This document shows positions 2,144-57,501 of a DNA stretch of 64,000 nt, in pieces. The notes beneath the pieces are model-generated. The model saw only the letters and a program-made list of their open reading frames with translations, ran no database searches and had not been told where the DNA came from. A program made the translations under genes and the position numbers. The stretch comes from an uncultured Barnesiella sp. (GTDB lineage: Bacteria > Bacteroidota > Bacteroidia > Bacteroidales > Barnesiellaceae_A): assembly GCA_944321085.1 (NCBI GenBank), contig CALUJY010000001.1, positions 154,671 to 218,670 on the forward strand. Reading direction: 5' to 3'. The stretch's first letter is position 1. Each line of letters opens with the position of its first letter.

Positions 2144-2149
2144 GTGTCG

Positions 2150-5230: not shown

Positions 5231-5248
5231 GGTATTAATTATTTATGA

Positions 5249-8229: not shown

Positions 8230-8241
8230 GATGCGTAACGA

Positions 8242-9380: not shown

Positions 9381-9549
9381 CGGCCTCTTTTATCTATAAC
9401 GGTACCGAGCTGTTTCAAAAGAGTCCACAAATCTTGCAAAATGCCCAAAAGTAAATATTATATACTTTTTTGTTCATGTAATATACCTTTTGTGCCTCTT
9501 TGTATGGGGCATATATATATGTATCAACAACAGAAAAAAGCCGTAAAAG

Positions 9550-9581
9550 TTTGTCTCTCCATCTATTTTGTTGTACTTTTG
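9550..9581 (+). promoter_or_regulatory. Bacteroidetes-type promoter for the HTCS gene
   Basis: A TTTG -33 element (9550-9553) is followed after exactly 20 nt by TACTTTTG (9574-9581), a perfect match to the Bacteroidetes housekeeping -7 consensus TAnnTTTG. Transcription would start near 9586-9588, just before the ATGs at 9591 and 9609. This excludes the longer in-frame start at 9441. Confidence 0.7.
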
Positions 9582-9590
9582 ATGTTCAAC

Positions 9591-33344: not shown

Positions 33345-35303
33345 ATGAATAGAAATTCATTGTTTTTCTTCTCTCTCTGTTTGTCGCTGTGCATGGTGAC
33401 TCCCTCTGTTGCTACATCGCTCTATGGTATAGAACGTATGCTTGCCGTCGATTCGCTTCCGGTATTGGATTGCGGTGTACATGTACGTTACGAAGGCAGC
33501 ATCGACAAACGAGGTCTCAATGCCGATTGGGATTGGAGCCTTTACCAAGATAGCAATGGCGAATGGGTTATTTTCGATGTCAAGGGAGCCGGCTGCATAT
33601 ACAATATGGTACAACATCGCTATTTGAGCAGTTCCGACCCTACATTCCGTTTCTATTTCGATGGTGAGACTACACCGCGTTTTTCTCTTAAATTGTCGGA
33701 ATTCGGTACAAAATATCCATTTGTGGCACCGCTTGCCACGGCATATATCGGACCTCTCGACAGTGGTCGTGGTCCTATTCGTGTGGCGCGCAGCTTTGTG
33801 CCCATGCCGTTTGCCCGGTCGTGCAAAATCACTACCGATGTACGCTTACAGGGTGCCGACCGTTCCCGCGGCGAAGGCGGGTGGGGGCATGTGGTGTATC
33901 AGGTTTATGCCGATACCATCTCCGGCTCTTTTACCGGTAATGAAGATTATACCGCCGTTAAACGCTTGTGGCGACAGACGGGAGTGCTGCCTCATGGTCG
34001 CCGTACCGACGATAAGGCTGTGACGCTCTCCGACAAGACGATTGCTCCCGGCGACTCGCTTTGCCTTTTGGCTGCCGATGCTCCCGGGGTATTGAGGGCG
34101 TTGCGTCTTTATCTGCCGGGTTTGGATTACGAGGGATTGCAGCAACTTTGGATAAGTGTTAGTTGCGATAACCATACGCAACCCGATGTTGCGTGTCCCG
34201 TGGGTTGTCTGGCCGGCAACTCGCTGGGGTATAACAATACGTCGTATTTGCTCAACGGATACTCTACCGATGGTAGCATCTATTCCTATTTCCCTATGCC
34301 TTTCTGGCAATCGGTGCGGGTTGTACTTACCAACCGTTCTTCCCGACCGGTAAGCCTCGCTTTTGCCGAGGCCGTTGTAGCTCCCAACCGTTACGATGCC
34401 GACCGCACGGGATATTTCCGCAACACACCTTATTACACGCGCAAGCATGTCGAGGGCAAAGATTCGCCCATAGGTACAGTGACCGGTACGGGTAAGATGG
34501 TGGCTGCGCATGTCACATGTTATGCCGAGCGTGAGCATATCATCTCTTGCGAGGGCGATGTGCGTGTCTATATCGACGGATGTCGTACCCCGCAGGTAGA
34601 GAGCGACGGCTCAGAGAGCTACGTTTGCTTCGGATGGGGATTTCCGACTCCTGCCGAGGGGCATCCCTCGGGCGGTTATGACGGTTTGTCCGACAATCCG
34701 TGGTCAATGACCCGATTGTGTATGGGCGACAGCTATCCTTTTTATCGCAGCCTTGCATTCGGGATAGAGTCGGGCGAACACAACAATCAATATCTCGAAC
34801 ATGCCGGCACGATATTCTATTACGGTCGCGACGAGGTGACGATGCAGCCTGTCGATAGCCTCATCCTCTCTGATGCCCGCTCGCGTCGCGCACATCATTA
34901 TAAAACCTATGGAGAGACCGATGTACAACGGCTCGAAAACACCTTTGAAGGCGATTGCTTGCATACGCGCGTTGCGGCTGATGTCTACCGTTCTACCGAG
35001 GGTAGTTCTTTCCGCATCGCTCTCCCTGCCGACAACCGAGGCATCTGTTTGCGCCGTATGAGCGACAATGCAACCGGCCGGCAGCTGGCTCGTGTGTTTG
35101 TCGATGGCGAGGAACTGCCTGCGCCGTGGTATGTAGCCGATTCGAATGCCTACATCCGTTGGCTTGAAGACGATTTTGATATTCCGGCGCGCTATACTGC
35201 CGGGAAAAGCTCGATAGAGATTCGCATTGTTCCTGTCGCTCCGGCTCGCGGGGGACAAATCTATTGGAACGAGGCAGAGTATCGCGTCTTTGCTTATCGT
35301 TAA
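33345..35303 (+). CDS. Secreted GH172-like (DUF2961) glycoside hydrolase
   Basis: A 652-residue protein with a Sec signal peptide (FFFSLCLSLCMVTPSVATS) and the DUF2961 architecture now called GH172. Visible motifs are WVIFDVKGAGCIYNMVQHR, FYFDGETTPRFSLKL and GTGKMVAAHVTCYAERE. Two Glu residues 21 apart, E403 (CEGDVRVYIDG) and E424 (DGSESYV), occupy the places of the family's conserved EGDD and TED glutamates, proposed as acid/base and nucleophile. Characterised members act on D-arabinofuranosides or fructofuranosides; the substrate here is unknown. The C-terminal 200 residues form a beta-sandwich. It is followed 48 bp later by the SGNH-LRR gene, so the two probably form an operon. Confidence 0.85.
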   Translation: MNRNSLFFFSLCLSLCMVTPSVATSLYGIERMLAVDSLPVLDCGVHVRYEGSIDKRGLNADWDWSLYQDSNGEWVIFDVKGAGCIYNMVQHRYLSSSDPTFRFYFDGETTPRFSLKLSEFGTKYPFVAPLATAYIGPLDSGRGPIRVARSFVPMPFARSCKITTDVRLQGADRSRGEGGWGHVVYQVYADTISGSFTGNEDYTAVKRLWRQTGVLPHGRRTDDKAVTLSDKTIAPGDSLCLLAADAPGVLRALRLYLPGLDYEGLQQLWISVSCDNHTQPDVACPVGCLAGNSLGYNNTSYLLNGYSTDGSIYSYFPMPFWQSVRVVLTNRSSRPVSLAFAEAVVAPNRYDADRTGYFRNTPYYTRKHVEGKDSPIGTVTGTGKMVAAHVTCYAEREHIISCEGDVRVYIDGCRTPQVESDGSESYVCFGWGFPTPAEGHPSGGYDGLSDNPWSMTRLCMGDSYPFYRSLAFGIESGEHNNQYLEHAGTIFYYGRDEVTMQPVDSLILSDARSRRAHHYKTYGETDVQRLENTFEGDCLHTRVAADVYRSTEGSSFRIALPADNRGICLRRMSDNATGRQLARVFVDGEELPAPWYVADSNAYIRWLEDDFDIPARYTAGKSSIEIRIVPVAPARGGQIYWNEAEYRVFAYR

Positions 35304-35351
35304 TCCGTATGGCGCTGCACACACATTTGAAACAGAACAATAACCGATAAA

Positions 35352-38300
35352 ATGAAAAACCAAATGAAAAGAATTTTATTCTCGTCTTTGCTGGCGCTAC
35401 TGATGTTGTTTGGTACATCGGCTTATGCCGGCGTAAAAATTGTAGTCCTGGGCTCTTCTACGGCGGCAGGTTCCGGCGTACAAGATATCAGCAATTCCTG
35501 GGTAAACCGTTATACCAAATATTTACAGACGTTAGACCCTACCAATCAGGTTATCAACCTCGCTAAGGGAGGCTATACGACATTTGCCATTATGCCTGCG
35601 GGAACGCCTTCTTATGATACAGGCACAAATATCCTTTCGGTCGATACAGAGCGGAACATAGACAAGGCTCTCAGCTACAATCCCGGTGCCATCATCATCA
35701 ATATGCCTACCAATGATGTGTCGAACGGTGTTCCCGTAGATACGCAGATGGATAATTTCAAGACCATTATAGATATGGCCGAGGCTGCCGGGGTGAAGGT
35801 GTGGATTACCACCTCGCAACCTCATAATTTCGGTGAACCGTATGATGGCCCCTATGGTGACGGAAAAGAACCCGACCCGTGGAAACAGACGGCACGCGAC
35901 AAGTTCAGGGAGCTTACCGAGCGTATTATGGCTACTTATGGCGAGCGCGCCATAGATTTCTATACCGACTTAGCTACGGAGGATGGTTATGGTTTTATCC
36001 GTCCCGAATATGACTCGGGCGACGGTACGCACCTCAATGATGCTGCACATGCCATCCTGTTTGAGAAAGTAAAAGAGAAAAATATTCCTTCGCAAATCGA
36101 CGACTCGTTCGGCGGAGTGCTTGCCAATCCTGTTTATATCAATTTCGGCCCCGTATCGGAAGTAGGTATCGATAATTGGAATCTTGTTTCGGCACAGAAT
36201 ACAGGTACGACGGTTTCGCCCTTGGTAGATTTTATGGGCAATGCAACATCGCTCAGTCTCTTTACCGTGAATGGTTTTACCAATGCAGCTCAAAACGGCG
36301 TGTCTTCTACCGTGATGGGGATGAACGATATTATATCTATGAGTAATTTCAGTTCAAACAGCAGCAATCCTCCCGTAATAGAGTTTGCAGGTTTGTCACC
36401 TTCGCAAGTTTACGATTTCTCGGTTTATGCTTCGCGCAGCGCATCGGATACTCGGGTTTGTATCTATACATTCGAGGGCGAGAATACCGTTACGGTTTCG
36501 CTCGATGCAGCCTCTAATGCGGAAAATGTTGCAGAGGCCAAGCAAGTCGTACCTAATGAGCTGGGCAAAGTGACGCTTACCATTACCCGCGATGCTTCCA
36601 ATAATAGCGGTTTCTGCTACATCAATGCTATGATGATAACCTCTGCCGCTCCCGCAGTGGTGATACCCGATGGAGCTATCAATGTGGAGACTCCCGGTAC
36701 GCTTGCACAACTTTTGGAACAACCTGTGGAAGAAATAACCGAACTTGTGTTGTACGGTTCGCTCAACGGAACCGACATCAAGACGATTATGTCGATGACA
36801 GCTCTCGAAGATATCGATATGTATAATACCTCTATTGTATCGGGTGGCGAAGCATATCTCAATGGCCTGACTACACGCGATAATATATTCCCGCAAGAGA
36901 TGTTTGTGAATAATACGGTCATACGTCGCGTGATACTTCCGGCTGCCATTACCGATTTGCGTTATCACACATTTATGGGAGCCTCGGCATTGGAAGAGGT
37001 GCGTATTCCCGACTCGGTTACTTCGTTCGGCAACGACCTTTTCAGCGGTTGTTCTTCGCTCTCTGTCATTAACATTCCTACCGGATTGCGTACAATGGGT
37101 ACGGGCTGTTTTTGGAATTGTGCTAAAATTACATCTTTGACTTTCCCTGAGGGTCTGACAGTGATTCCCGGCGGCTCTTTCTATGGTTGTTCTGCAATGA
37201 CGGAGCTTAATTTGCCGGAGTCTCTTACGGCCATAGAGGGGGACTGGACATTTGCAGGTTGCTCGTCTCTTTCATCTATTGTGTTCGGCCCGTATATCAC
37301 TACTATTCCTGCCGGAGCATTCTATAACTGTTGGTCGCTCAACACGATATATGCCAAAATGCCGGTGTTGCCCGTTATAGACACAAAGAACGGCGATACT
37401 CCGTTTACCGGTGCATTCAAGCCCCAGTATTGTACGCTGTATGTGCCTTTTGCTGCACTCGACACTTATAAAGAAGATGCCGTGTGGGGCGGTATGGCCA
37501 ATATCGTTCCTTTGGCAGAAGTTTCGATCGATGGCACGCCTTTGACTCCCGGCCGTGAGGGTTTACAAACTCTTGCTACGGCACAGCATATCGTTATGAC
37601 GGGTTCTACTCCCGATGCCGACCTTTTTGCCGATGCGCTTGCCTCTAACACCTCAATTACTACCATAGACCTTACGGGGGTTACGGAGTATGCTTCGCTC
37701 ATATCGACGGGTAATCCCAACTGCCTTACCTATGTCAATGCCGAGGCCGAAGTAGAGGGCGACAATGTGGTTAAGGTAGCTTCTGACGGAACGGCCACGG
37801 TGGCAAGTCTCGTACTGAGCGACGGTTTTGATTTCTATAACGACCGCGAGTTTACGGCAACATCTGCTTCGTTTACCCGCTACTTCGAGGCCGGATGGAC
37901 TACTCTCGCATTGCCTTTTGCTGCCGGTAACGACGGCGCTTGGATAGAGTCGTTCTCGGAAATGGATGAAACTGGAAAAACGATGACTTTCGATTCTCGC
38001 GAGACCATCGATGCCGATGGAGTACACCTCATTCGCTATGAGGATGCCGGCGAACATACTTTTGTCGGAGCACAAGCTGTCGTTGCAGCTTCGGCCACGC
38101 AACCGCTCAATGACTTCTATTGGGCGACTAACTATCTCAATGGCGAGACGGTGAGCGGTTATACCTTGCAAACCGAAGGCGAGTATCAATATTTCCGTCC
38201 GGCAACGGAGCCTCTCTCTTCTTTCCGCGGATATGCCGTAATACCCAATGGAGCCGATTCGTACCTTATCGTTCACGACAGTGTCCCCACATCGGAGGAG

Positions 38301-38501
38301 CTTATGACAGCCGAGACATTCTCTGTTTATGCAGCAGGTCATACTCTGTATGTACGTTCCGATAAGGCATGTACGTTGGCCGTTTATGGTATCGACGGAC
38401 GCTGCGTAAAGCAACTTGTCGTCAAAGAGGGTAACAATACTTTCGATGACTTGCAACGCGGTTTGTACGTAGTGGCAGGCCATAAAGTAGTTATACGATA
38501 A
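35352..38501 (+). CDS. Large secreted SGNH hydrolase with BspA-type LRR and T9SS-like tail
   Basis: A 1049-residue multidomain protein. A signal peptide (ALLMLFGTSAYA) precedes an SGNH/GDSL-type hydrolase domain (about 27-245): block I VVLGSST with likely nucleophile S36, block II KGGYT, block III MPTND (N121) and block V D224-G-T-H227. A fibronectin- or jelly-roll-like part follows (about 255-430). BspA-type leucine-rich repeats then run from about 530 to 690 (LEEVRIPDSVTSFGNDLFSGC, LSVINIPTGLRTMGTGCFW). A further beta region ends in a tail, SDKACTLAVYGIDGRCVKQ to GLYVVAGHKVVIR, resembling type A T9SS sorting domains. Inferred role: a surface or secreted esterase with a binding module, paired with the GH172-like enzyme. 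Substrate unknown. Confidence 0.85.
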   Translation: MKNQMKRILFSSLLALLMLFGTSAYAGVKIVVLGSSTAAGSGVQDISNSWVNRYTKYLQTLDPTNQVINLAKGGYTTFAIMPAGTPSYDTGTNILSVDTERNIDKALSYNPGAIIINMPTNDVSNGVPVDTQMDNFKTIIDMAEAAGVKVWITTSQPHNFGEPYDGPYGDGKEPDPWKQTARDKFRELTERIMATYGERAIDFYTDLATEDGYGFIRPEYDSGDGTHLNDAAHAILFEKVKEKNIPSQIDDSFGGVLANPVYINFGPVSEVGIDNWNLVSAQNTGTTVSPLVDFMGNATSLSLFTVNGFTNAAQNGVSSTVMGMNDIISMSNFSSNSSNPPVIEFAGLSPSQVYDFSVYASRSASDTRVCIYTFEGENTVTVSLDAASNAENVAEAKQVVPNELGKVTLTITRDASNNSGFCYINAMMITSAAPAVVIPDGAINVETPGTLAQLLEQPVEEITELVLYGSLNGTDIKTIMSMTALEDIDMYNTSIVSGGEAYLNGLTTRDNIFPQEMFVNNTVIRRVILPAAITDLRYHTFMGASALEEVRIPDSVTSFGNDLFSGCSSLSVINIPTGLRTMGTGCFWNCAKITSLTFPEGLTVIPGGSFYGCSAMTELNLPESLTAIEGDWTFAGCSSLSSIVFGPYITTIPAGAFYNCWSLNTIYAKMPVLPVIDTKNGDTPFTGAFKPQYCTLYVPFAALDTYKEDAVWGGMANIVPLAEVSIDGTPLTPGREGLQTLATAQHIVMTGSTPDADLFADALASNTSITTIDLTGVTEYASLISTGNPNCLTYVNAEAEVEGDNVVKVASDGTATVASLVLSDGFDFYNDREFTATSASFTRYFEAGWTTLALPFAAGNDGAWIESFSEMDETGKTMTFDSRETIDADGVHLIRYEDAGEHTFVGAQAVVAASATQPLNDFYWATNYLNGETVSGYTLQTEGEYQYFRPATEPLSSFRGYAVIPNGADSYLIVHDSVPTSEELMTAETFSVYAAGHTLYVRSDKACTLAVYGIDGRCVKQLVVKEGNNTFDDLQRGLYVVAGHKVVIR

Positions 38502-38549: not shown

Positions 38550-38590
38550 GTGTCGCGACTGCTCAAAAAAGTGGTCGCGACACTTTCTTG
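38550..38590 (+). terminator. Rho-independent terminator after the SGNH-LRR gene
   Basis: GTGTCGCGAC (38550-38559) and GTCGCGACAC (38574-38583) form a perfect 10-bp stem, extended by three further pairs (two wobble) around an A-rich loop. TTTCTT follows. Confidence 0.8.
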
Positions 38591-38817: not shown

Positions 38818-39795
38818 ATGAAAAAACTATTCCTTTTCTGTCTCATTTTGCATGTCGGTATGTTTACTTCTTTTGCTGCCGACCCTGTGAAGATGTGGGG
38901 TCAGTTGCAAGTAAAAGGCAATCAGTTATGCAGTGAACAAGGTGCCCCTGTGGTATTGCGTGGCGTAAGTTACGGGTGGCATAATCTGTGGCCTCGTTTC
39001 TACAACAAAAACACGGTCAAATGGCTTAAAAACGATTGGAAGTGTACGGTCTTGCGTGCTGCCATGGGTACGGTTATAGAAGACAATTACATCGAAAATC
39101 CCGATTTTGCGCTTCAATGTATCAACACCGTTGTCAAGGCGGCTATCAAGAACAATGTCTATGTCATCATAGACTGGCACACCTATTATCCTCAGAAAGA
39201 AGAGGCCAAGGCGTTCTTCTCTATGATGGCTCAGAAGTACGGCAAGTATCCTCATGTTATATACGAGATATATAACGAGCCGATGGAAGATACATGGGAG
39301 AGTGTGAAAGAGTATGCTACCGAGATTATTACCGAAATACGCAAGTACGACCCCGATAACATTATCCTTGTGGGAAGTCCTCATTGGGACCAAGACTTGC
39401 ATTTGGTTGCTGCCGATCCGTTGCAGGGTTTCGACAATATCATGTACACTTTTCATTTCTATGCTGCGACCCACGGGCAAGAGCTTCGCGACAGGGTGGA
39501 GGCGGCGTGGAATGCCGGCATTCCTATCTTCGTTTCGGAGTGTGCCGGAATGGAAGCATCGGGCGACGGCCCGTTGAATGTGCCCGAGTGGCAAAAATGG
39601 ATAGACCTGATGGAGCGGTTGCAAATCAGTTGGGTCAATTGGTCTATCTCGGACAAGAATGAGACTTGCTCGATGATTTTGCCTCGTGCCGACAAGAACG
39701 GAGGTTGGGACGAGTCGCTCATCAAACCCTACGGCCGATTGGTGCGCGAATATGTGCGCAAATACAATGCTTATGTCTATCCCGACAAGAAATAA
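38818..39795 (+). CDS. GH5 (subfamily 2-like) endo-beta-glucanase
   Basis: A 325-residue secreted TIM-barrel glycosidase. Signal peptide LFCLILHVGMFTSFAA; the catalytic domain follows directly with no binding module. Landmarks are VVLRGVSYGWHNLWP, VYVIIDWHTYYP, VIYEIYNEP with acid/base E154, and IFVSECAGMEASGDG with nucleophile E241. The xSExxxxxASG arrangement and SYGW start resemble GH5_2 cellulases, which cut beta-1,4-glucan and in some cases glucomannan. It is the first gene of PUL2 with its own promoter, 62 bp before SusC. No lipobox is present, so it may be periplasmic or secreted, unlike the two lipoprotein GH5 enzymes downstream. Confidence 0.9.
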   Translation: MKKLFLFCLILHVGMFTSFAADPVKMWGQLQVKGNQLCSEQGAPVVLRGVSYGWHNLWPRFYNKNTVKWLKNDWKCTVLRAAMGTVIEDNYIENPDFALQCINTVVKAAIKNNVYVIIDWHTYYPQKEEAKAFFSMMAQKYGKYPHVIYEIYNEPMEDTWESVKEYATEIITEIRKYDPDNIILVGSPHWDQDLHLVAADPLQGFDNIMYTFHFYAATHGQELRDRVEAAWNAGIPIFVSECAGMEASGDGPLNVPEWQKWIDLMERLQISWVNWSISDKNETCSMILPRADKNGGWDESLIKPYGRLVREYVRKYNAYVYPDKK

Positions 39796-39857: not shown

Positions 39858-42800
39858 ATGGAGAATAATAATTTGTTAACTCCCCATGCTGAACATCCGG
39901 CGAAAAGGCATTTCCGTGTCGCTATGCTCTCGGTAGCGATGCTATGCTTTTTCTGTTCTGCTTGGGCGCAAGTGAGAGTCACCGGCGTGGTGCGTGACTC
40001 TAATGGTGAAGCCTTGCCCGGCGTCAATGTCATAGAGCAAGGGAACAAGAGTAATGGCGTCATGACCGACATGGATGGTAATTACACCATTTCGGTTACC
40101 GACAACAAGGCAAGCCTTACCTTCTCGTTTATCGGTTACGAACCGCAAACGATAACGGTGGGTAAGCGGACTAAAATCGACGTAGACCTTGCCGAGATGA
40201 GTACGGTGATGGATGAAGTCGTAGTAATCGGTTATGGTTCTATGCGTCGTAAAGACCTTTCGGGTGCTGTGGCATCATTGCAGAGCGATGACATCATGCA
40301 AGGGTCGCCCACCTCTCTGACTCAGGCATTGCAAGGCCGTTTGGCCGGTGTGCAGGTAAACCGTAACGACGGTGCCCCCGGTTCGGGTGCGAGTATCACC
40401 ATTCGTGGTGCCAACTCTTTCTCGACCAACTCCCAACCTCTCTATATCGTAGATGGAATACCTTTTGAAACAGGTAGCATGCCTACCAGCGATGTGAACG
40501 AGGGAAATACCACGGCTGCCGACCCCCTTTCGCTTATCAACCCCAATGATATCGAGTCGATTGATATTTTGAAGGATGCTTCGGCTACGGCTATCTACGG
40601 TTCTCGTGGTGCCAATGGTGTCGTTATCATCACAACTAAGAAAGGTAAAGCCGGAAAGGCAAGAGTAGAGTTATCGGCCAACTTCGGTATCTCGCAAGTT
40701 TCCAAGAAGATAGAGATGCTCGATGCTTATACCTATGCTCAGTTTATGAACGAAGGTACGATCAATGGCGGTCTTTATGATGGTCTCCTTTGGACGGAAT
40801 TGCCATACGATGGTGAGTGGAACTACCAATACGATGCAAGCGGAAACCTTATTCCCGAGTCGGGCGACTATGCTCCTTCTCCCGAAGACTTCCTCAACCC
40901 CGGCTGGCGTATCGACGAATATGGCAACCGTGAGTGGATAGAGGGAACAGATTGGATGGACCAAGTGATGCAGACCGGTATGACGCAAGAGTATAACCTG
41001 AGTGTATCGGGTGGTACCGACCGTCTCAACTATGCTTTCTCGGGTAACTACTCGAAACAAGATGGTATCATCAAGAACTCGGGTTACGAACGCTTTACGT
41101 TCCGTACCAATATCAATAGCAACATCACTTCGTGGTTGAGTGCCGGCTTGAATATCAACTTTACCAAATCGACTACCGATTTTGCCAAGGCCAACGACTA
41201 CGACTATTCTATCATCCGTTCGGCCATGGTATATCTGCCTACGGTATATTACGGAGACAATTCGGAGGACGACGAGTATTCGTGGCTCTCTGCCAACCCG
41301 CGTACTTATGTGAACACGGCAAAAGACCAATTATCGTCGCTCAACGTATTTACGTCGTCTTATTTGGAATTTAAGATTACCGACTGGTTGACTTTCCGTC
41401 AAAACCTCGGTATCAGTTACACGAACCAAGACCGTTCGAGCTACTACAACCGTGAGACGGGCGAAGGTCGCAGCGCTAACGGTCGTGCCGGTCGCAGCGA
41501 CAGTTTCTGGCAGAATATTACTACCGAGTCGTTGCTCACCTTCAATAAGGTATTCAACGATATACATCATGTTAATGCCGTTGTCGGTTTCACATACGAG
41601 CAATCGGACTGGGGCGGCAAGTCTATCACGGCACAGAACTTCCCCACAGACCTTACGCAAGACTACGACATGAGCCAAGCTCTGACGGTAGACCGTCCGA
41701 CGAGCAGCCGCGGTCGTGCCAACCTGATTTCTCTCTTGGCGCGTGCCAACTATACGTTGAAAGACCGTTACATCTTTACGGCTTCTTATCGTCGTGATGG
41801 TTCGAGCCGTTTCGCTCCGGGTAACAAGTTTGCCAACTTCGCTTCGGGTGCATTTGCATGGTCGCTCGGCGAAGAGGAATTTATCAAGAAACTCGATGTG
41901 TTCAGCAACCTCAAACTCCGTTTGAGCTACGGTCAGACGGGTAACCAAGCCATATCGAGCTATCAGACGATGGAGTCGCTCGGTACTGCCAACTATCCTC
42001 TCAACGGTACGCTCACGAGCGGTTTCAGCGGACAGGTTTATAAAGGCCCGCTCAACAAAGGTTTGAAGTGGGAGACTACCGACCAATTCAACGTGGGTCT
42101 CGACTTCGGTTTCTTGCGCAACCGCCTCAACTTCTCGGCCAACTACTATTGGAAGAAGACCAAAGATTTGTTGCAAAACGTTTCTATACCTACCTCGACG
42201 GGTTACTCGACGATGTGGACTAACTTCGGTAACGTAACTAACCAAGGTTTCGAGTTCCAAGCCAACGTGGTGGCCATAGAGACCAAAGATTGGGGCTTGA
42301 CTATCGACGGTAACATCTCGTTCAACCAGAACCGTATCGGTGGCCTCGAAGCCGACCAATATGCAAGTCAGCTGTGGTATGGCGCCAATGAGGTATTCTT
42401 GCAACGCAACGGATTGCCTATCGGTACTATCTTCGGTTACGTAGAGGATGGCTTCTATGATAATATCGCCGAGGTGCGCGCCGACCCCATCTATGCTTAT
42501 GTATCGGACGACGAGGCTCAACGCATGATTGGTGAAATCAAGTATGTCGATGTCAACGGCGATGGTGCCATCACGACCGACGACCGCGTTGTGATTGGCG
42601 ATACCAACCCCGACTTTATCTATGGTATCAACCTCAACGGCCGCTGGAAAAATCTTACTTTGGGCTTGTTCTTCCAAGGCAGCCAAGGTAATGACATATT
42701 CAATGGTAACCTCACGATGATAGGTATGAGCTCTATCGGTAACGTGACGCGGGATGCTTATGACACACGCTGGACGCCCGATAATACCGAGAATGCGAAG

Positions 42801-43100
42801 TGGCCGCGTATCACCACTGCCATGACCCGCGATATGAAGCTCTCAGACCGTTATGTAGAGGATGGCTCGTACTTCCGTTTGAAAACTATCAACTTGGCAT
42901 ACAACTTCGGTTCGGTATGCAAAGGTATCACCGACATACAGCTTTATGCTACGGTTACAAACGTATTTACTATTACTAACTACAGCTGGTTCGATCCCGA
43001 TGTCAGCTCTTTCGGTACAGATGCTTCTCGCCGTGGTGTAGATATCTTCGCATACCCCAACTGTCGTACTTATTCTATCGGCTTTAAATTAACACTGTAA
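39858..43100 (+). CDS. SusC/RagA-family TonB-dependent transporter (PUL2)
   Basis: A 1080-residue outer-membrane oligosaccharide importer. The signal peptide has a long polar n-region (residues 1-20) before VAMLSVAMLCFFCSAWAQ. Residues about 40-115 form the carboxypeptidase-regulatory-like domain (VTGVVRDSNGEALPGV, DMDGNYTIS). The signature DEVVVIGYGSMRRKDLSGAV is at about 119-138, and the plug follows (ALQGRLAGVQV, ITIRGANSF, PLYIVDGIPFE, DASATAIYGSRGANGVV). The barrel ends SIGFKLTL. No STN domain is present. It lies 13 bp before the SusD-like gene. Confidence 0.96.
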   Translation: MENNNLLTPHAEHPAKRHFRVAMLSVAMLCFFCSAWAQVRVTGVVRDSNGEALPGVNVIEQGNKSNGVMTDMDGNYTISVTDNKASLTFSFIGYEPQTITVGKRTKIDVDLAEMSTVMDEVVVIGYGSMRRKDLSGAVASLQSDDIMQGSPTSLTQALQGRLAGVQVNRNDGAPGSGASITIRGANSFSTNSQPLYIVDGIPFETGSMPTSDVNEGNTTAADPLSLINPNDIESIDILKDASATAIYGSRGANGVVIITTKKGKAGKARVELSANFGISQVSKKIEMLDAYTYAQFMNEGTINGGLYDGLLWTELPYDGEWNYQYDASGNLIPESGDYAPSPEDFLNPGWRIDEYGNREWIEGTDWMDQVMQTGMTQEYNLSVSGGTDRLNYAFSGNYSKQDGIIKNSGYERFTFRTNINSNITSWLSAGLNINFTKSTTDFAKANDYDYSIIRSAMVYLPTVYYGDNSEDDEYSWLSANPRTYVNTAKDQLSSLNVFTSSYLEFKITDWLTFRQNLGISYTNQDRSSYYNRETGEGRSANGRAGRSDSFWQNITTESLLTFNKVFNDIHHVNAVVGFTYEQSDWGGKSITAQNFPTDLTQDYDMSQALTVDRPTSSRGRANLISLLARANYTLKDRYIFTASYRRDGSSRFAPGNKFANFASGAFAWSLGEEEFIKKLDVFSNLKLRLSYGQTGNQAISSYQTMESLGTANYPLNGTLTSGFSGQVYKGPLNKGLKWETTDQFNVGLDFGFLRNRLNFSANYYWKKTKDLLQNVSIPTSTGYSTMWTNFGNVTNQGFEFQANVVAIETKDWGLTIDGNISFNQNRIGGLEADQYASQLWYGANEVFLQRNGLPIGTIFGYVEDGFYDNIAEVRADPIYAYVSDDEAQRMIGEIKYVDVNGDGAITTDDRVVIGDTNPDFIYGINLNGRWKNLTLGLFFQGSQGNDIFNGNLTMIGMSSIGNVTRDAYDTRWTPDNTENAKWPRITTAMTRDMKLSDRYVEDGSYFRLKTINLAYNFGSVCKGITDIQLYATVTNVFTITNYSWFDPDVSSFGTDASRRGVDIFAYPNCRTYSIGFKLTL

Positions 43101-43113
43101 TACTACTATTGCA

Positions 43114-44880
43114 ATGAAAAAATCTAAATATATATGTGCGGCGTTGGCATTGAGCCTCTGCTTGCCTTTCTCTTCGATGTTCACTGCGTGTGACGATATG
43201 CTCGAAGAACAACCTTTCGACTTTATCTCGCCCGACCAAATAGAAGACTCGGACAACGGAGCAGACATGTGGACGATGGGCGTGTATAATGTGCTCCATA
43301 CCGGTATGTTTGTCTATGGCAACTTCCCCCGTCCTCTCGACTACGACTGCGACTACATAGGTGGTGCCGTATGGCAATTCTCGGAGTTCGGTAGCGGTAA
43401 CTTCCAAGGCGGAAGCAACCAATCGGACGCTTTGTGGACGGGTATGTACTCGCTTATCAACAAAGCTAACCAAGCCATTGCCCAAATCAGCGACATGCAG
43501 AATGTAACCGAGGCTCACCGTAATAATTGCCTCGGCGAGTGCTATTTCCTGAAAGCATGGGCCTACTTCATGCTTACCCGTGCCTACGGTGACATTCCGG
43601 TTTATTCGGTAAGTGTCGATGAGTCGGGCAAGTATACAAGCAACCCCCGTGTGGCCATCAAGGAGGTTTATGAGCAACACATCATTCCTCTGCTTGACCA
43701 GGCCAAGAATATGATTTACAAGAATACCGACGGTAACTACAAGCTCGGTCGCGTAAGCGCAGCTTCGGCAGCCGGTCTCCTTGCCAAGGTATATGCCACT
43801 ATGGGTTCGGCTTCGATGCCCGCCGGCGAGAAAATCACTGTTAAGACAGGTGTTCCTTATGTTATCCAACCCATCGATGGTGTACAGACCAAGGTTTATA
43901 CCGACCCCGTTCCCACCGAAATGACAAAAGATCAGGTGGCTGGTTACGAAGGTTTCGATTCGCAGGCTTGCTACCAACGTGCCTACAACCTTGCCGACTC
44001 GGTAATGAAAGGTATGTATGGTTCGCACGAATTGGTGCCTTACTCTACGTTGTGGTCGCCGCAAGGCAAGACGAGCAGCGAGTTCCTTTTCAGCTTGCAG
44101 ACTATCTCGGGCGATAATACCTTCGGTACGTTGTTCAGCTATCACTATTGCGGTAAGCTCAACGACCAAGGTCACATAGACAACTCGTTGACGGTGGGTA
44201 TGCGCAAACACTGGTATTTGCTCTTTGAAGAGAAAGACTATCGTGTAGACCAAGGCGTGATGCACTGCTGGATACGCGAAGGTTCCGACTCGTCGTGGGG
44301 TGGTGGTTCGTACTATCCTGACTTCGGTAAATGGCAACGTATGGTTGAAAACCGTGAACCTCCTTTCGATAATCCCGAGGTAACGGCCGGATGGCGTTGT
44401 GATCAGAATGGTTCGGAGCAGTTCTTCGCCTTTACTACCAAGTATTCGCAACAGATTTCAGACCAGACCATCGACCGTACCGATGCCAACTATCCTTTCT
44501 TGCGCTATGCCGACATCGTACTTATCTTTGCCGAAGCCGCCAATGAGCTTTATGGACCTACGGCACAATCGGTAGATGCTCTCAATTCTGTAAGAAACCG
44601 CAGCAACGCTACGCCGAAAGAGATGGCAGAGTTTACCGACAAAGCCTCTTTGCGTTCGGCTATCATAGAAGAGCGCGCTATGGAGCTTGCTCTCGAAGGT
44701 GACCGTCGCTGGGACCTCATTCGTTGGGGTATCTATTTGCAAGCCATGAACGCATTGGGCGGCATGGATGAGGCAAACAATGTGAAGTCGCGTTCAGAGC
44801 GTCACCTCTTGTTCCCCATTCCTACTATGGAAGTCCTTACCAACGAAGCTATAACGACTAACAACCCCGGATGGAATTAA
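43114..44880 (+). CDS. SusD/RagB-family glycan-binding lipoprotein (PUL2)
   Basis: A 588-residue SusD-like protein, longer than the PUL1 one. The lipobox is FTAC with Cys26, followed by DDMLEEQPFD. Helical SusD landmarks include GECYFLKAWAYFMLTRAYGDIPVY, AAGLLAKVYATM, YPFLRYADIVLIFAEAANELYG and EERAMELALEGDRRWDLIRWG. It forms the lid of the SusC at 39858 and should bind the PUL2 glycan. The 30 bp gap to the next gene fits a single operon. Confidence 0.95.
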   Translation: MKKSKYICAALALSLCLPFSSMFTACDDMLEEQPFDFISPDQIEDSDNGADMWTMGVYNVLHTGMFVYGNFPRPLDYDCDYIGGAVWQFSEFGSGNFQGGSNQSDALWTGMYSLINKANQAIAQISDMQNVTEAHRNNCLGECYFLKAWAYFMLTRAYGDIPVYSVSVDESGKYTSNPRVAIKEVYEQHIIPLLDQAKNMIYKNTDGNYKLGRVSAASAAGLLAKVYATMGSASMPAGEKITVKTGVPYVIQPIDGVQTKVYTDPVPTEMTKDQVAGYEGFDSQACYQRAYNLADSVMKGMYGSHELVPYSTLWSPQGKTSSEFLFSLQTISGDNTFGTLFSYHYCGKLNDQGHIDNSLTVGMRKHWYLLFEEKDYRVDQGVMHCWIREGSDSSWGGGSYYPDFGKWQRMVENREPPFDNPEVTAGWRCDQNGSEQFFAFTTKYSQQISDQTIDRTDANYPFLRYADIVLIFAEAANELYGPTAQSVDALNSVRNRSNATPKEMAEFTDKASLRSAIIEERAMELALEGDRRWDLIRWGIYLQAMNALGGMDEANNVKSRSERHLLFPIPTMEVLTNEAITTNNPGWN

Positions 44881-44910: not shown

Positions 44911-46110
44911 ATGAAAACTTTATCATATATCATACCTTTTGCCTGCCTCACTCTCATGACGGTGGCTTGTAATGATATTGTCGAGGTCGACGATATACTC
45001 TCGCGAGAGAACCGTCCTTCTACGGGGGCTCCCGTGGTTGACCGCGTTGTCCTTGCCACCGACACGACAATGCCTATCACCGTTGCGGCATTCGAGCAGG
45101 TAGTACGCTTCCAAGGTTCGAACCTTGGCGATGTAACCTCTTTGAAATTCAATGATGTAGAGGTTGACCCCAAAGAGATATATTCGAGTTACGAGTGCCT
45201 TTTGGCACCCGTACCTCGTCAGCTCCCCGGTGAGGTGACCAATATGGTCTATATCGTTACCGAGCATGGCTCTACCGAGACCCCTCTGGAAATAACCATT
45301 CCTCCTCTGACGATAGAGGGTATGTATAACGAATTTGCCCAACCCGGCGATACGACCGTTATATCGGGCGATAACTTTGATCTCTACGGTATTACTGCCG
45401 AGGCTGCCGATGTACGTTTCGGACAGATTCCTGTAAACATCCTCGAAGCTACCCGTACCGAACTTACGTTGCAAATACCGCAAAATGTTACATCCGGTAC
45501 GCAAATCTCTATCTTGGGTGGTGAAATGGACGAACCGTATGTGATGACATATGCCGATCCCGGTGTTTCGCAACTCTTCGACTTTAACGATTGGCCCGGC
45601 TACGGTGCATTTACTCATGCCAGCCAATTCCCCGATGCTCCTGCTAACTTCTTGTGGGATGAGTCTATCATCAACGAAGAAGAGGGCGACCCGCTGCCTT
45701 TGGCCGACGGCATGAAGTATATCCGATTCCAAGGTACCGTAGGCGCGTGGGGCTGGATGGTAATGTGGGCAGGTTATATAGATGTACCTGCCGAGGTGGC
45801 TGCCAACCCAGCCGACTACGACATGCGATTCGAGATGAACAATACGACGGCTTATCCTATTGCTTCGGCTGCGCGCATTATGTTTGGTAACTTCGGATGG
45901 TATCCTGCAGGCGACGGTATTCCCGTGAATACCCGTGGAGCGTGGATGACGGTGCGCATACCTTGTAACACTATCGACCGCGAGGGTAACCAACTTATCC
46001 CCAATGGTGTAGATCCGACAACTCGCTTTGCCTTTACCATCGTATTCTCGCCCGAGTCAGAGCAGACTTTCGATGTAGCGTTCTGTAATTTCCGTTTCGT
46101 TAAAAGATAA
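44911..46110 (+). CDS. Surface glycan-binding protein (IPT/TIG domains)
   Basis: A 399-residue lipoprotein (lipobox MTVAC, Cys20). Residues about 40-125 and 125-215 look like two IPT/TIG immunoglobulin-type domains (VVRFQGSNLGDVTSLKFND; GDTTVISGDNFDLYG). The C-terminal 180 residues resemble the glycan-binding domain of SGBP-B proteins (MKYIRFQGTVGAWGWMVMWAGYIDV, RGAWMTVRIPC, AFTIVFSPE), rich in exposed Trp. Position directly after SusCD is the standard slot for such proteins. It is inferred to hold the polysaccharide at the surface for the lipoprotein GH5 enzymes. The specific glycan is not readable. Confidence 0.9.
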   Translation: MKTLSYIIPFACLTLMTVACNDIVEVDDILSRENRPSTGAPVVDRVVLATDTTMPITVAAFEQVVRFQGSNLGDVTSLKFNDVEVDPKEIYSSYECLLAPVPRQLPGEVTNMVYIVTEHGSTETPLEITIPPLTIEGMYNEFAQPGDTTVISGDNFDLYGITAEAADVRFGQIPVNILEATRTELTLQIPQNVTSGTQISILGGEMDEPYVMTYADPGVSQLFDFNDWPGYGAFTHASQFPDAPANFLWDESIINEEEGDPLPLADGMKYIRFQGTVGAWGWMVMWAGYIDVPAEVAANPADYDMRFEMNNTTAYPIASAARIMFGNFGWYPAGDGIPVNTRGAWMTVRIPCNTIDREGNQLIPNGVDPTTRFAFTIVFSPESEQTFDVAFCNFRFVKR

Positions 46111-46119
46111 TTTGTCATA

Positions 46120-47226
46120 ATGAATAGAATCATGTTTAAGAAATTATTGCCTTTTGCCGTAGCGTTGGCAGGTCTCGTGTTCGTTTCTTGTAACAAAGAT
46201 GAAGCCGGTGGCGGCGGTAACGGTTCGAACTCAAACAGCAAAATAGAGAATCCCTATTTTGGCGTGAACATGTCGGGTGCCGAGTTTGGCGGCATATATC
46301 CCGGTGTCGATGGTACTCATTACGGTTATCCCGGCAAAGCCGATTTGCAATACTTCAAGAACAAAGGGTTTAATTTGGTGCGTTTCCCCTTCCGGTGGGA
46401 ACGCATCCAACCCGAGTTGGGTGGTGAGCTCAATCAGGTAGAGCTGGCCAAGATGAAGAAGTTTATGGATGAAGCTCAAGAAGTGGGCATGTGGGTATTG
46501 CTTGATATGCACAACTTCGGTCGCTATTGCATCTATTGTGACGGTGTTGACTCTGAGAATAACCAGTATGCCATCATCGGTACGGCACAATGTACGGTCG
46601 ATGAGTTCTGCGATGCATGGCGTCGTCTCGTTCCCGAGTTTATGAATTATCCCAACTTGTGGGGATACGACATCATGAACGAGCCCAACGATATGTTGGA
46701 ATCTACACCGTGGTTTAATATTGCACAAGCTTGTATCAACACTATCCGTGAGATAGATATGGAGACACCTATCATCGTCAGTGGTGATGAGTTCTCCTCA
46801 GCAAAGAACTGGGTGACCGAGAGCGGCAACCTTAAAAACCTTGTCGACCCGGCAAACGACCTTATATTCCAGGCTCACGTCTATTTCGACAAAGATGCCT
46901 CGGGTAACTATGCTTTCTCTTACGAAGAGGAGAATGCCAATGCCAATACCGGTGTAGGCCGTCTGTCGCCCTTCGTGGAGTGGTTGAAACAAAACAACCT
47001 GCGCGGTTTCGTGGGCGAATATGGTGTGCCCGACGATGATGGCCGCTGGCTTGATGTACTCGACAACGCGCTCCGTTATCTCTCGGAGAATGGCGTGCCC
47101 GGTACATATTGGTCGGCCGGACCTCGCTGGGGCGATTATCCTTTAGCCGTGCAGCCTACCAATAACTACACCGAAGACCGTCCCCAAATGTCTGTTTTGG
47201 AGAAGTATCTGGTAGCTAAACAGTAA
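46120..47226 (+). CDS. GH5 lipoprotein endo-glycanase 1
   Basis: A 368-residue lipoprotein (FVSC, Cys24) with a Gly/Ser/Asn-rich linker (about 30-40) and a GH5 TIM barrel: YFGVNMSGAEFGG, NLVRFPFRWERIQPE, VLLDMHNFGRY, WGYDIMNEPND with acid/base E188, and GFVGEYGVPDDD with nucleophile E300. The pattern resembles GH5_5-like endoglucanases; specificity for glucan, mannan or glucomannan cannot be fixed. It is a clear paralogue of the gene at 49900. A start four codons later (46132) is also plausible. A strong terminator-like hairpin follows, which may reduce expression of downstream genes. Confidence 0.88.
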   Translation: MNRIMFKKLLPFAVALAGLVFVSCNKDEAGGGGNGSNSNSKIENPYFGVNMSGAEFGGIYPGVDGTHYGYPGKADLQYFKNKGFNLVRFPFRWERIQPELGGELNQVELAKMKKFMDEAQEVGMWVLLDMHNFGRYCIYCDGVDSENNQYAIIGTAQCTVDEFCDAWRRLVPEFMNYPNLWGYDIMNEPNDMLESTPWFNIAQACINTIREIDMETPIIVSGDEFSSAKNWVTESGNLKNLVDPANDLIFQAHVYFDKDASGNYAFSYEEENANANTGVGRLSPFVEWLKQNNLRGFVGEYGVPDDDGRWLDVLDNALRYLSENGVPGTYWSAGPRWGDYPLAVQPTNNYTEDRPQMSVLEKYLVAKQ

Positions 47227-47316: not shown

Positions 47317-49878
47317 ATGAAACGCTTGATGGATGTGACCGTTGCTCTGTGGATGCTCACGATGCTGTTACCCGAGAGTATTTCTGCCCAAATGTCGATG
47401 GACGAAGCCGACCGCGCAGCTTTTGCAGCCGTAACTTCGCCTTTGGCAGCTGACGCCGCCTTTATGCAGCCGACTGTCATGCCCGATACTACGGTCATGC
47501 CGGCAGCAAAGAGCCTTTCATTGTCGGGCGAATGGAGCTTGGCTCCCGACGACGGCGATGGCCATGCGCTTTGGGACGAGGCTGTGACAGCCCATGTTCC
47601 CGGTACGGTGCATCGCGCACTCTTCGAGCAAGGAATTATTCCCGACCCGATGGTGGGACGCAACGACTCTATTGCCGAAAAGTGTTCATACAAATGTTGG
47701 TGGTATAAGAAAACCTTTACATACGACGGTTCTTTGCACGACCCGCTGCTCACTTTCGAGGGCGTGGCTAATCGTTGCAAAGTGTGGCTCAACGGTAAAC
47801 TCTTGGGCGAGCACGAGGGTATGTTCGGCGGTCCCGATTTCGATGTGAAACGGGCTCTTAAAAAAGGTGAGAACATTCTTGTGGTTCGTCTCGACTCCAT
47901 TCCCCAAACCTATCTTGGCGGCTGGCCTGCCACGGCAAACGAAGCGTGGAAGTACTCTGTCGTCATTAACTGCGTCTATGGATGGCATTATGCCAAAATC
48001 CCGTCGCTGGGCATTTGGCAGCCTGTGGCTCTGCGTGAGCGTCCGGCTGTACGCATAGAAAATCCCTTTATTGCCACTCGCTCGGTCGATGGCGATATGC
48101 GCTTGGTTGCCGACTTGAAAGGCAAGGCCTCGGCGGCCGAGTTGACACTTATTGTGAAACCTCTTCATTTCGAGGGCAAGACTCAGGTTTTCGGTCACAC
48201 TGTCAAAGGCGGTGCGAAACAGCTTGCTTTCGATTTCAAAATAGACCAACCCGCTCTTTGGTGGCCTAACGGCATGGGCGGGCAGCCCCTTTATGAGGCT
48301 ATTGTAATACTTTCGTCGCAAGGCCGTAAGGTGTGTGCGACGCGCCTTACTTTCGGTGTGCGTACTATCGAGATGCGCCCCTTCCCCGAAGGGGCTGCTC
48401 CCGACAAATATAATTGGACTTTTGTCATCAATGGCAAACCGCTTTTTGTCAAGGGTACGGGATGGTGCACGGCCGATGCTTTGCTCGATTGCTCGCGCGA
48501 ACGTTATGCCCGTTTCTTGCACATAGCCAAGCTCCAAAATATACAAATGCTGCGTGCATGGGGCGGCGGGATGCCCGAGACCGATACTTTCTACAATCTT
48601 TGTGACAGCCTCGGCATTATGGTTATGCAAGAGTGGCCTACGGCTTGGAACAGTCACAATACGCAACCTGCCGCGATGCTGCGCGAAACAGTGACGCGCA
48701 ACACGTTGCGTCTGCGCAACCATCCGTCGCTTGTGATGTGGGGTGCGGGCAACGAATCGGACAAGCCGTTTGGTGAGGCGATAGATATGATGGGGCGTGC
48801 CGCCATAGAACTCGACGGTTCTCGTCCCTTCCATCGCGGTGAGGCGTGGGGCGGCAGCCTTCACAACTATAATTGCTGGTGGGATAATTATCACTTGAAT
48901 CACAATCTCAACATGACGGCACCATTCTGGGGCGAGTTCGGTATTCCTTCGCTGCCCGTATGCGAGTCGGTGTTGCGCTATCTCGATGGCGAGGAGTTCG
49001 TGTGGAAACCCGCTGCCGAAAGCAATTTCACTCATCACACCCCCATTTTCGGCACGAACGACGAAATAAACCGTTTGGAACAGTATGCCGGCTATTTTAT
49101 GCCGACCGATTCGTTACACAACATCGTGTTCGGCTCGCAGTTGGCACAGGTGGTGGGCGTGTGCCACACGCTCGAACGTGCCCGCACGATGTGGCCGCAT
49201 ACGACCGGTGCGCTTTATTATAAGATGAACGATAACTATCCCGGGCTCTCATGGTCGTGCGTCGATTACTATGGGGCGATAAAGCCGTTGCATTACTTCG
49301 CCCGCCGCTCATTTGCTCCCGTTGCATCGGTAATCCTTTTCGACCGTACCAATATGGCTTGTCAGGATGTGACTTTGCCGCATTACCTGCTCGACGACAA
49401 CGAAACATTAGCCGGCGACTCGGTAACGGTTGCTTGGGCAGTATATAACGAGAAAATGGAAGCCGTAGCAGATACCGCATATAGCTGCCTTGCCACGGGT
49501 AAGGTGCAGCGCCTGCCGGATATACACCTCACGACGGACGATACACATGCTTTGTTGCTCCTTTTCAAAAGCGATGTACGCGATGCGCAGGGTAATCTGC
49601 TGGCGCGTAATTGGTATTTCGCCAATTACGAAACCCGTCCCGGTGTCATCTTACAGGCTCGGAAAACGACCTTGCAATATCGTCGCGAAGGCAACGACAT
49701 CGTAATTACCAATACCGGCGATGTACCGGCGTTTGGCGTGACGGTGAGCGTACCGGGTAAAGCCTCGCAGCTGTTGCTCTCTGACAACTACCTGTGGATA
49801 GATGCCGGCGAGACCGTGCGTGTGAGCATAAACCTCGATGCCCCTGTTACGGTGTCGGCATGGAATATACAACACTAA
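47317..49878 (+). CDS. GH2 beta-mannosidase-like enzyme
   Basis: An 853-residue secreted GH2 protein. The signal peptide ends near SISAQ (residue 25). A sugar-binding domain (SLSGEWSLAPDDGDG, VPGTVHRALFEQGIIPDPM) and an immunoglobulin-like domain precede the TIM barrel. FVKGTGWCTADAL, LRAWGGGMPETDTFYNLCDSLG and VMQEWP are typical of the mannosidase branch of GH2 rather than galactosidases. Acid/base is E480 (GAGNES) and nucleophile is E540 (WGEFG). The second residue of the nucleophile motif and length agree with periplasmic beta-mannosidases of Bacteroidales. In PUL2 it would remove mannose from the non-reducing end of imported oligosaccharides. Confidence 0.9.
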   Translation: MKRLMDVTVALWMLTMLLPESISAQMSMDEADRAAFAAVTSPLAADAAFMQPTVMPDTTVMPAAKSLSLSGEWSLAPDDGDGHALWDEAVTAHVPGTVHRALFEQGIIPDPMVGRNDSIAEKCSYKCWWYKKTFTYDGSLHDPLLTFEGVANRCKVWLNGKLLGEHEGMFGGPDFDVKRALKKGENILVVRLDSIPQTYLGGWPATANEAWKYSVVINCVYGWHYAKIPSLGIWQPVALRERPAVRIENPFIATRSVDGDMRLVADLKGKASAAELTLIVKPLHFEGKTQVFGHTVKGGAKQLAFDFKIDQPALWWPNGMGGQPLYEAIVILSSQGRKVCATRLTFGVRTIEMRPFPEGAAPDKYNWTFVINGKPLFVKGTGWCTADALLDCSRERYARFLHIAKLQNIQMLRAWGGGMPETDTFYNLCDSLGIMVMQEWPTAWNSHNTQPAAMLRETVTRNTLRLRNHPSLVMWGAGNESDKPFGEAIDMMGRAAIELDGSRPFHRGEAWGGSLHNYNCWWDNYHLNHNLNMTAPFWGEFGIPSLPVCESVLRYLDGEEFVWKPAAESNFTHHTPIFGTNDEINRLEQYAGYFMPTDSLHNIVFGSQLAQVVGVCHTLERARTMWPHTTGALYYKMNDNYPGLSWSCVDYYGAIKPLHYFARRSFAPVASVILFDRTNMACQDVTLPHYLLDDNETLAGDSVTVAWAVYNEKMEAVADTAYSCLATGKVQRLPDIHLTTDDTHALLLLFKSDVRDAQGNLLARNWYFANYETRPGVILQARKTTLQYRREGNDIVITNTGDVPAFGVTVSVPGKASQLLLSDNYLWIDAGETVRVSINLDAPVTVSAWNIQH

Positions 49879-52319: not shown

Positions 52320-52345
52320 AGAATATAAAACTATAAATGCTTATC

Positions 52346-57497: not shown

Positions 57498-57501
57498 TTT
57501 T

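Follow-up and report, generated by a model that had tools for sequence, protein, structure and literature searches.

A GH172-like clade with a replaced active-site aspartate, represented beside a polysaccharide utilisation locus of an uncultured Barnesiella

Glycoside hydrolase family 172 (GH172; domain DUF2961) is young, and in the literature covered its characterised members act on alpha-D-arabinofuranosides and alpha-D-fructofuranosides. Our account of the family draws on excerpts of four papers (PMC10115798, PMC8605356, PMC8812541 and PMC10509167). In the founding enzyme, alphaFFase1 of Bifidobacterium dentium (PDB 7V1V), E270 is the acid/base and E291 the nucleophile, and according to the excerpted report the D292A and D292N mutants have 0.1-1.4% activity left (PMC8605356). 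DgGH172b of Dysgonomonas gadei, as far as the excerpts describe it, is a dimer of ~73-kDa chains with 1.5 DUF2961 domains, set in a D-arabinan polysaccharide utilisation locus (PUL) with GH183 genes (PMC10115798). ExoMA1 (PDB 8IC8), a GH172 exo-alpha-D-arabinofuranosidase, and a further D. gadei GH172 protein (PDB 8AH3; molecule name DG02479, by its number probably DgGH172c) also come from D-arabinan clusters with GH183, in the parts of the sources available. Here we describe a GH172-like (DUF2961) glycosidase gene (33345..35303, + strand, 652 aa) and the gene that follows it, which encodes a predicted SGNH/GDSL acyl esterase with BspA-type leucine-rich repeats (LRRs; hereafter SGNH-LRR; 35352..38501, + strand, 1049 aa). 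Both lie in a 64,000-nt stretch of contig CALUJY010000001.1 from an uncultured Barnesiella (the window, in whose numbering coordinates are given). The main interest is not the pairing of the two genes; it is the clade to which the GH172-like protein belongs, in which a residue essential in alphaFFase1 is replaced and which occurs with a cross-phylum enzyme set.

The GH172-like protein matches PF11175 (DUF2961) at 4.3e-37 over residues 266-493, scoring 128.3 bits against a gathering score of 27, and its frame holds a second, partial PF11175 match further upstream. It has a signal peptide by eye, and the open frame also permits an ATG at 33273, upstream of 33345. A structure model built from 11 sequences (mean predicted local distance difference test score, pLDDT, 67.3) suggests a layout of an N-terminal half-copy at ~60-190, a double jelly roll at 216-498 and a CBM35-like C-terminal module at 500-652. 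As modelled, mainly residues 216-498 superpose on the GH172 structures 8ic8, 8ah3, 4kq7 and 7v1v (VIA-align Z 21.9-23.2, root-mean-square deviation (rmsd) 3.1-3.5, 261-273 aligned residues), best on 8IC8 and 8AH3 (Z 22.8-23.2), and Foldseek ranks the same GH172 entries first. The predicted 500-652 module matches CBM35 (Z 11.3-12.4, rmsd 2.4-2.8) and also the C-terminal domain of a GH146 enzyme (Z 12.9, both by VIA-align). From its sequence and, for the domain layout, this model, we find the first protein to have the DUF2961/GH172 fold, both catalytic glutamates and a CBM35-like module. An earlier note, made from the letters of the window, had called it a secreted DUF2961/GH172-like enzyme retaining E403 and E424; the family match bears this out, and both glutamates stand at exactly those positions. 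It shares with alphaFFase1 (excerpts of PMC8605356) the double jelly roll, glutamates 21 residues apart and an equivalent of W298, and differs in adding the half-copy and the CBM35-like module, in its gene neighbourhood and in its low identity over the fold alignment (22%). DgGH172b, to which we liken it by description only, is of similar size and also has an extra partial domain.

Aligned to 7v1v, 4kq7 and 8ah3, E403 and E424 fall on E270 and E291 of alphaFFase1, and, reading the register from that alignment, S425 sits where all three structures carry Asp; 8AH3 thus keeps a Glu-Asp motif, unlike the clade of the window protein. We examined this region in 43 aligned rows, 11 of them from the clade, which forms one side of a tree branch with support of 100/100. 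One clade row is a fragment without the region, which leaves 10 with letters from eight distinct genomes (two pairs duplicate one genome each). In the column of D292 all 10 (eight distinct) have Ser, whereas 30 of the 32 rows outside the clade have Asp, and the clade therefore lacks the -1 subsite Asp of the characterised alpha-D-arabinofuranoside and alpha-D-fructofuranoside enzymes. Both glutamates are kept in the same 10 rows, across two phyla, within the strongly conserved motif EGDVR-x9-[QK]VESDGSES, and E419 and D421 are exclusive to the clade among the 43 rows. The equivalent of W298 is kept in the window protein as W431. W267 is Ile throughout the clade, and 11 of the 32 non-clade rows have lost the Trp as well; because of this variation, the active-site argument rests on D292. 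Y187 of alphaFFase1, which comes from the neighbouring protomer, was dropped as a marker, its column being variable in all rows. We found no published description of a GH172 clade with a replaced D292 in the literature covered, which takes in few subscription journals. With its nucleophile and acid/base retained and the essential -1 residue replaced, this clade, which spans two phyla and sits among glycan-degradation genes in the window, the Tannerellaceae, the Phocaeicola and the Paenibacillus, is a concrete candidate for a new glycosidase activity. We propose, with somewhat less than even confidence, that its motif marks a new GH172 specificity: the clade would cleave a side sugar that is not a known target of any characterised GH172 enzyme (another furanose, apiose for example, or even a pyranose), borne by a gluco(manno)glycan with rhamnose and acyl groups, or by oligosaccharides from it, which Bacteroidota and Bacillota would both use.

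The GH172-like protein might still be an alpha-D-arabinofuranosidase, or cleave some closely related D-furanoside, if another residue (D421 or E419, for instance) takes the place of D292 and the glycan bears side groups that resemble D-arabinofuranose. The retained glutamates and W431 would fit this, as does the Paenibacillus member of the clade, whose gene follows one for an L-fucose isomerase, with no GH29 or GH95 fucosidase among the operon genes scanned. Enzymes of this type also accept D-arabinose. Two more clade genomes (one Barnesiella and the Phocaeicola) hold an L-fucose isomerase, there on another contig than GH172. This makes three of the eight distinct genomes, or three of the 10 entries with two genomes repeated, and the window genome gave no match to the enzyme; a D-arabinose route via L-fucose isomerase is attractive in Paenibacillus, but we rejected it as a general explanation. 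Further against an arabinofuranosidase, the alphaFFase1 D292 mutants fall to ~1% activity or less in the excerpted report (PMC8605356), and the window genome has no match to GH183 (PF13810, endo-D-arabinanase) in a search that was positive in 23 of 344 Bacteroidales genomes, over the cut-off in 11. We regard this alternative as unlikely. The absence of a GH183 match, in which the window genome differs from the sources of ExoMA1 and 8AH3, also led us to reject a D-arabinan locus. The earlier note had suggested an arabinan- or fructan-type furanoside as target, a suggestion weakened by the clade-wide loss of the essential -1 Asp and by the GH183 result. Elsewhere in the survey, two genomes carry GH183 and DUF2961 genes on one contig, ~0.2 kb (G060) and ~5.6 kb (G230) apart, and their DUF2961 proteins (L022, L027) have the usual Asp at the D292 position. 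These DUF2961 genes near GH183 (G060:C6:103018-105585 and G230:C33:24443-32328) are likely part of ordinary D-arabinan loci in Bacteroidales.

Contrary to the earlier note's statement that no SusC/SusD pair stands beside the two genes, the second stop codon is followed after 316 bp by the start of a GH5 gene and after 1.36 kb by that of a SusC gene; SusD, a surface glycan-binding protein (SGBP) and ten more genes come next on the same (+) strand, to 61647. The run begins with GH5a, endoglucanase-like (38818..39795; PF00150 5.6e-59; PDB 5i2u 2.4e-131), a SusC/RagA TonB-dependent transporter (39858..43100; TIGR04056 2.1e-279), a SusD-like glycan-binding lipoprotein (43114..44880; PF07980 1.2e-34) and an SGBP-B-like protein (44911..46110; PF18329 2.9e-18). 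Next come GH5b, endoglucanase-like (46120..47226; PF00150 8.6e-45; PDB 4lx4 8e-80 and 4ee9 2e-76), a beta-mannosidase-like GH2 (47317..49878; PDB 5n6u 8.4e-72), GH5c (49900..50967; PF00150 5.8e-41) and an apiosidase-like protein (50967..52319; PF13204 2.9e-111; PDB 8t9w apiosidase 1.3e-95), PF13204 proteins being what we take to be family GH140. These are followed by a GH130 resembling 4-O-beta-mannosyl-glucose phosphorylase (52337..53521; PDB 3was 1.1e-187), an MFS sugar transporter (53518..54936; PF13347 2.2e-98), a GH78 alpha-L-rhamnosidase-like protein (54933..57497; PF17389 1.7e-99; PDB 6i60 5.5e-104) and an AXE1-type acetyl esterase (57451..58797; PF05448 3.8e-49). A DUF5040 protein (58933..59718; PF16443 1.7e-105), with orthologues of 69% identity in the Phocaeicola and 63% in the Tannerellaceae locus described below, and a SASA-type carbohydrate esterase (59731..61647; PF03629 9.7e-18) complete the run. 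From GH5a through AXE1 the intergenic gaps are -47 to +90 bp. With a SusC/SusD pair and co-directional carbohydrate-active enzyme genes, this is a PUL, and its enzyme classes suggest a glycan with a beta-1,4-gluco(manno) backbone, rhamnose, other side groups and esters. Beta-mannan and glucomannan-type Bacteroidales PULs with GH26 or GH26-related genes share SusC (55-57%), GH130, MFS and SGBP-B with the window; unlike them, the window has no GH26 among the genes scanned and adds GH78, GH140-like, GH172-like and several esterase genes. A literature search for DUF2961 together with mannan turned up nothing beyond PMC10115798, itself available in excerpt.

To place the clade more widely, we scanned 84,980 genomes, one per species, with peptide patterns that may miss relatives, in a set that may omit the window's genome. 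This gave nine loci, seven of them with at least 49% identity: four in the Barnesiella group and one each in a Tannerellaceae, a Phocaeicola and a Paenibacillus. GH5a is present in seven of the eight distinct genomes holding the GH172 clade. In the Tannerellaceae metagenome-assembled genome (MAG; L072, L150) the order is GH172, AraC, SusC, SusD, GH5a, GH2, GH5c, GH140-like, GH130, MFS, DUF5040, with identities to the window proteins of 78% for GH5a, 64% for GH5c, 56% for GH140-like, 79% for GH130, 81% for MFS and 63% for DUF5040. The Phocaeicola MAG (L073, L112, L113, L153) has GH172, AraC, SusC, SusD, GH5a, GH2, GH5c, GH140-like, MFS, GH78, DUF5040 (GH5a 78%, in two pieces; GH5c 64%; GH140-like 61%; MFS 79%; GH78 59%; DUF5040 69%); relative to the Tannerellaceae cassette, GH130 is missing and GH78 added, and a GH26/GH130/SusC (57%) locus lies on the opposite side. 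One Barnesiella-group genome (L130) contains the block GH5a-SusC-SusD-SGBP-B-GH2-GH5c-GH140-like-GH130-MFS-GH78. In another (L131), picking of open reading frames (ORFs) showed GH5a, SusC, SusD, GH140-like and GH130 only, and longer opposite-strand ORFs may hide GH2, GH5c and SGBP-B. In Paenibacillus an import operon runs GH140-like, response regulator, histidine kinase, two ABC permeases, binding protein, GH78, GH2, GH78, L-fucose isomerase, GH172, so that GH172, GH140-like, GH2 and GH78 are common to this genome and the window. The Paenibacillus GH172 orthologue (50% identity) has no signal peptide by eye, and would therefore act on imported oligosaccharides. The conserved cassette of GH172-like, GH2, GH78, GH140-like, GH130 and GH5 genes defines a PUL whose substrate would reveal the polysaccharide, dietary or microbial, in which the gut bacteria that carry it are specialised. 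Beside these loci we noted a Phocaeicola ORF without a Pfam match immediately 5' of GH172 (L073, 8222-9907).

The explanation that we favour, at about even confidence and from synteny, active-site columns and enzyme classes, is that the two-gene unit heads one PUL (33.3-61.6 kb) for an acylated, rhamnose-bearing gluco(manno)glycan, in which a GH172 enzyme of changed specificity trims a side sugar with help from a surface esterase. SGNH-LRR would be an O-acyl esterase exported to the surface by the type IX secretion system (T9SS), stripping acyl groups so that the GH5 endo-enzymes can cut. Backbone and fragments would be handled by the endoglucanase-like GH5 enzymes, the beta-mannosidase-like GH2 and the Man-beta-1,4-Glc phosphorylase, and side groups by the GH78, GH140-like and GH172-like enzymes. 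Of these, the GH172-like protein would be a retaining exo-glycosidase on oligosaccharides, periplasmic in the window bacterium and cytoplasmic in Paenibacillus, and the side sugar it removes would differ from those that characterised GH172 enzymes release, alpha-D-arabinofuranose and alpha-D-fructofuranose. Most likely the glycan would have a beta-1,4-gluco(manno) backbone bearing rhamnose and acyl groups and be of plant or microbial type; glucomannan, a bacterial exopolysaccharide or an apiose-bearing glycoside may be the substrate.

Several observations weigh against this explanation. The SusC/SusD pairs beside GH172 in the Tannerellaceae and Phocaeicola differ from the window pair (~30% identity or less), so that conservation lies in the enzymes rather than in the transporter. 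Barnesiella-group genomes carry GH172 and SGNH-LRR apart from the SusC cassette. The Tannerellaceae, Phocaeicola and Paenibacillus genomes (three of the eight distinct genomes with the clade) gave no SGNH-LRR match, and the esterase therefore has no fixed tie to the clade. In both MAGs (L072 and L073) the GH172 gene is broken across two frames. GH2 is also split over frames in both, as is GH5a in the Phocaeicola; several split genes per MAG suggest assembly errors, although real decay may be involved. The model of the window protein has pLDDT below 50 at 395-404 and 416-462, the catalytic stretch, and does not resolve the pocket. Finally, loss of the essential Asp could instead indicate a dead or weak enzyme. 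The GH172-like protein would then be a DUF2961 protein with little or no catalysis that now binds glycan through its CBM35-like module, the presence of which agrees with such a role, as do the changes of D292 to Ser and W267 to Ile across the clade. A distant Calditrichota DUF2961 relative (L074, 8658-11648) has His and Asp in place of both catalytic glutamates, and the fold evidently tolerates loss of catalysis. A dead enzyme would not need both glutamates, however, and their retention throughout the clade, in two phyla and in a conserved motif, makes us consider a binding protein quite improbable.

The second protein joins an SGNH/GDSL domain (28-245; Pfam 1.9e-17, residues 32-235) to an accessory domain (252-440), BspA-type LRRs (~514-666, the extent taken from PDB matches; PF13306 3.1e-34, best stretch 514-629; PDB 4fs7 3.5e-41) and a T9SS-like tail (988-1049). 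The fusion of 1049 residues that had been read from the letters is confirmed by the two Pfam matches. S36, N121, D122, D224 and H227 are invariant in all eight aligned homologues; we take S36 to be the nucleophile, N121 to contribute to the oxyanion hole and D224-x-x-H227 to complete the site, in line with the SGNH motif. The Gly of the GxND block of that motif is Pro at 119 in all eight rows, and we keep the SGNH-type label because of the Pfam match and the catalytic residues, despite Pro119. A single-sequence model of the SGNH domain had a mean pLDDT of 39.8 and was unusable for the fold, and an alignment profile of the domain found weak matches in the PDB, the best at 2.8e-4 (a GDSL-like protein). 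The accessory domain is homologous to the N-terminal domain of three homologues without an LRR match (E 1e-7 to 2e-12). These SGNH hydrolases (L124-L126) share 42-53% identity in the SGNH domain; their accessory domain is N-terminal, whereas the window protein has it after the SGNH domain and carries an LRR scaffold besides. No SGNH-LRR was found in viral contigs, and a literature search on the combination of SGNH, LRR and BspA found no related paper.

The C-terminus of SGNH-LRR, which the earlier note had called sorting-tail-like, has no match to the Pfam or NCBIfam T9SS C-terminal models and is absent from the genome's 52 PF18962-like matches (E <= 0.1). We built a profile from 27 of the genome's own tails, having dropped three of 30 (L082 and L091, in the wrong frame, and L093, in the window). 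It scores the SGNH-LRR tail at 26.2 bits, against 12.7 for the best of 500 shuffles (289 scored at all), and two Barnesiella-group orthologues at 33-34 bits. Among 16 other window proteins, one with a DUF6383 tail scores 25.7, GH2 -2.6 and 14 have no match. Two further proteins encoded in the genome also carry tail matches, and the genome has sprA, the T9SS translocon gene (2821.9 bits). The call of a sorting tail is thus upheld by the genome's own tails and by sprA, though not by the general models, and SGNH-LRR is probably exported by the T9SS. Sequence comparison shows the second protein to be an SGNH hydrolase whose catalytic Ser, Asn and Asp-His are intact, and which also carries an accessory domain, LRRs and a T9SS-like tail.

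The two genes are separated by 48 bp, as had been stated and as their coordinates confirm, and a terminator-like hairpin of 14 pairs followed by a T-rich tail (38550..38583, + strand) closes the unit. The 7-kb stretch examined holds 17 terminator-like sites where shuffled versions average 7.3, but the stem at 38550-38583 is by far the longest. The 48-bp gap and this hairpin make a two-gene transcription unit plausible. Fusions of DUF2961 to GDSL-like lipases and to other enzyme or binding domains, with DUF2961 also found among carbohydrate genes, are described in the excerpts of PMC8812541; the same esterase association occurs there in one chain, and here in two adjoining genes with an LRR scaffold on the esterase. 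An esterase beside DUF2961 is therefore not new as a theme.

A stand-alone depolymerase and esterase pair acting on an acylated arabinan- or fructan-type furanoside polymer, as the earlier note proposed, would agree with the spacing, the unit's own terminator-like hairpin, the published fusions (PMC8812541, in excerpt) and the keeping of both genes, loosely linked, in the Barnesiella group. Yet a complete PUL adjoins the unit, the enzyme cassette recurs with a GH172 orthologue at its head in two other bacterial families, the close pairing was seen in the window genome only, the Paenibacillus orthologue without a signal peptide points to work on oligosaccharides, and the changed -1 subsite residue and missing GH183 match speak against the target. 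We consider such a pair very improbable. The enzyme classes, secretion and the pairing of enzyme and esterase in a two-gene unit are borne out; the stand-alone status is not.

Both genes were found in four other genomes, all of the Barnesiella group: three have them 9.8-14.3 kb apart on opposite strands, and in the remaining one they lie on different contigs. The earlier note would have taken a pairing unique to this genome as refuting its reading; the close spacing was seen here only, which refutes the pairing on those terms, though a looser association extends to these four. The GH172-like protein may instead belong to the PUL with SGNH-LRR an unrelated surface protein, its neighbour by chance placement in the window genome. 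The three clade genomes in which it was not found favour this, as do the opposite strands in the Barnesiella group and the housekeeping-type genes that lie between the two in the one such genome scanned by Pfam. Against chance, SGNH-LRR occurs in all four Barnesiella-group genomes with the GH172 clade, adjoins a GH5b homologue in the three where that side was inspected, and has no full-length match in other genomes of the Bacteroidales survey below, among the matches listed. We think chance placement somewhat unlikely. An ORF without a Pfam match lies beside SGNH-LRR in one Barnesiella-group genome (L063, 12379-14307); it overlaps SGNH-LRR and is possibly a chance ORF.

The distribution of the locus was surveyed in 344 Bacteroidales genomes, with at most two candidates per genome scored for SGNH-LRR and SusC and gene loci drawn for 30 of the 40 GH172-like matches listed; one locus (L114), on a wrong contig, was left out. 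Any GH172-like match at 1e-10 occurs in 29 of the 344, and a close one (at least 60%) in three: the window genome and two genomes of one other genus (G109 and G209). Among the matches listed, the same three alone match SGNH-LRR from residue 1 past 850, and SGNH-domain-only matches reach 53% in other genomes. SusC of at least 70% is likewise confined to these three among the candidates scored, and four further genomes without a close GH172 have SusC at 44-56%. None of the four congeners sampled has a GH172 match or a match to the window SusC, and the locus is therefore patchy. GC skew falls from ~0.07-0.17 (1-32 kb) to ~-0.03 to 0.08 (32-64 kb), near the start of the locus after serS. Together with the four same-genus genomes, this shift means that the glycan locus is possibly an acquired island.

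The locus is closed by a 614-aa protein (62037-63881) that matches CBM_4_9 and ends in a DUF6383/Por_Secre-like tail. Just upstream of the two-gene unit lie an ECF sigma factor (31089-31679) and a 263-aa secreted-looking protein without a Pfam match (32191-32982). A second SusC/SusD locus occupies 716-9282 (- strand) and 9441-13622 (+ strand); it includes a 576-aa protein without a Pfam match, an MFS transporter and a second GH130, and adjoins a hybrid two-component regulator.

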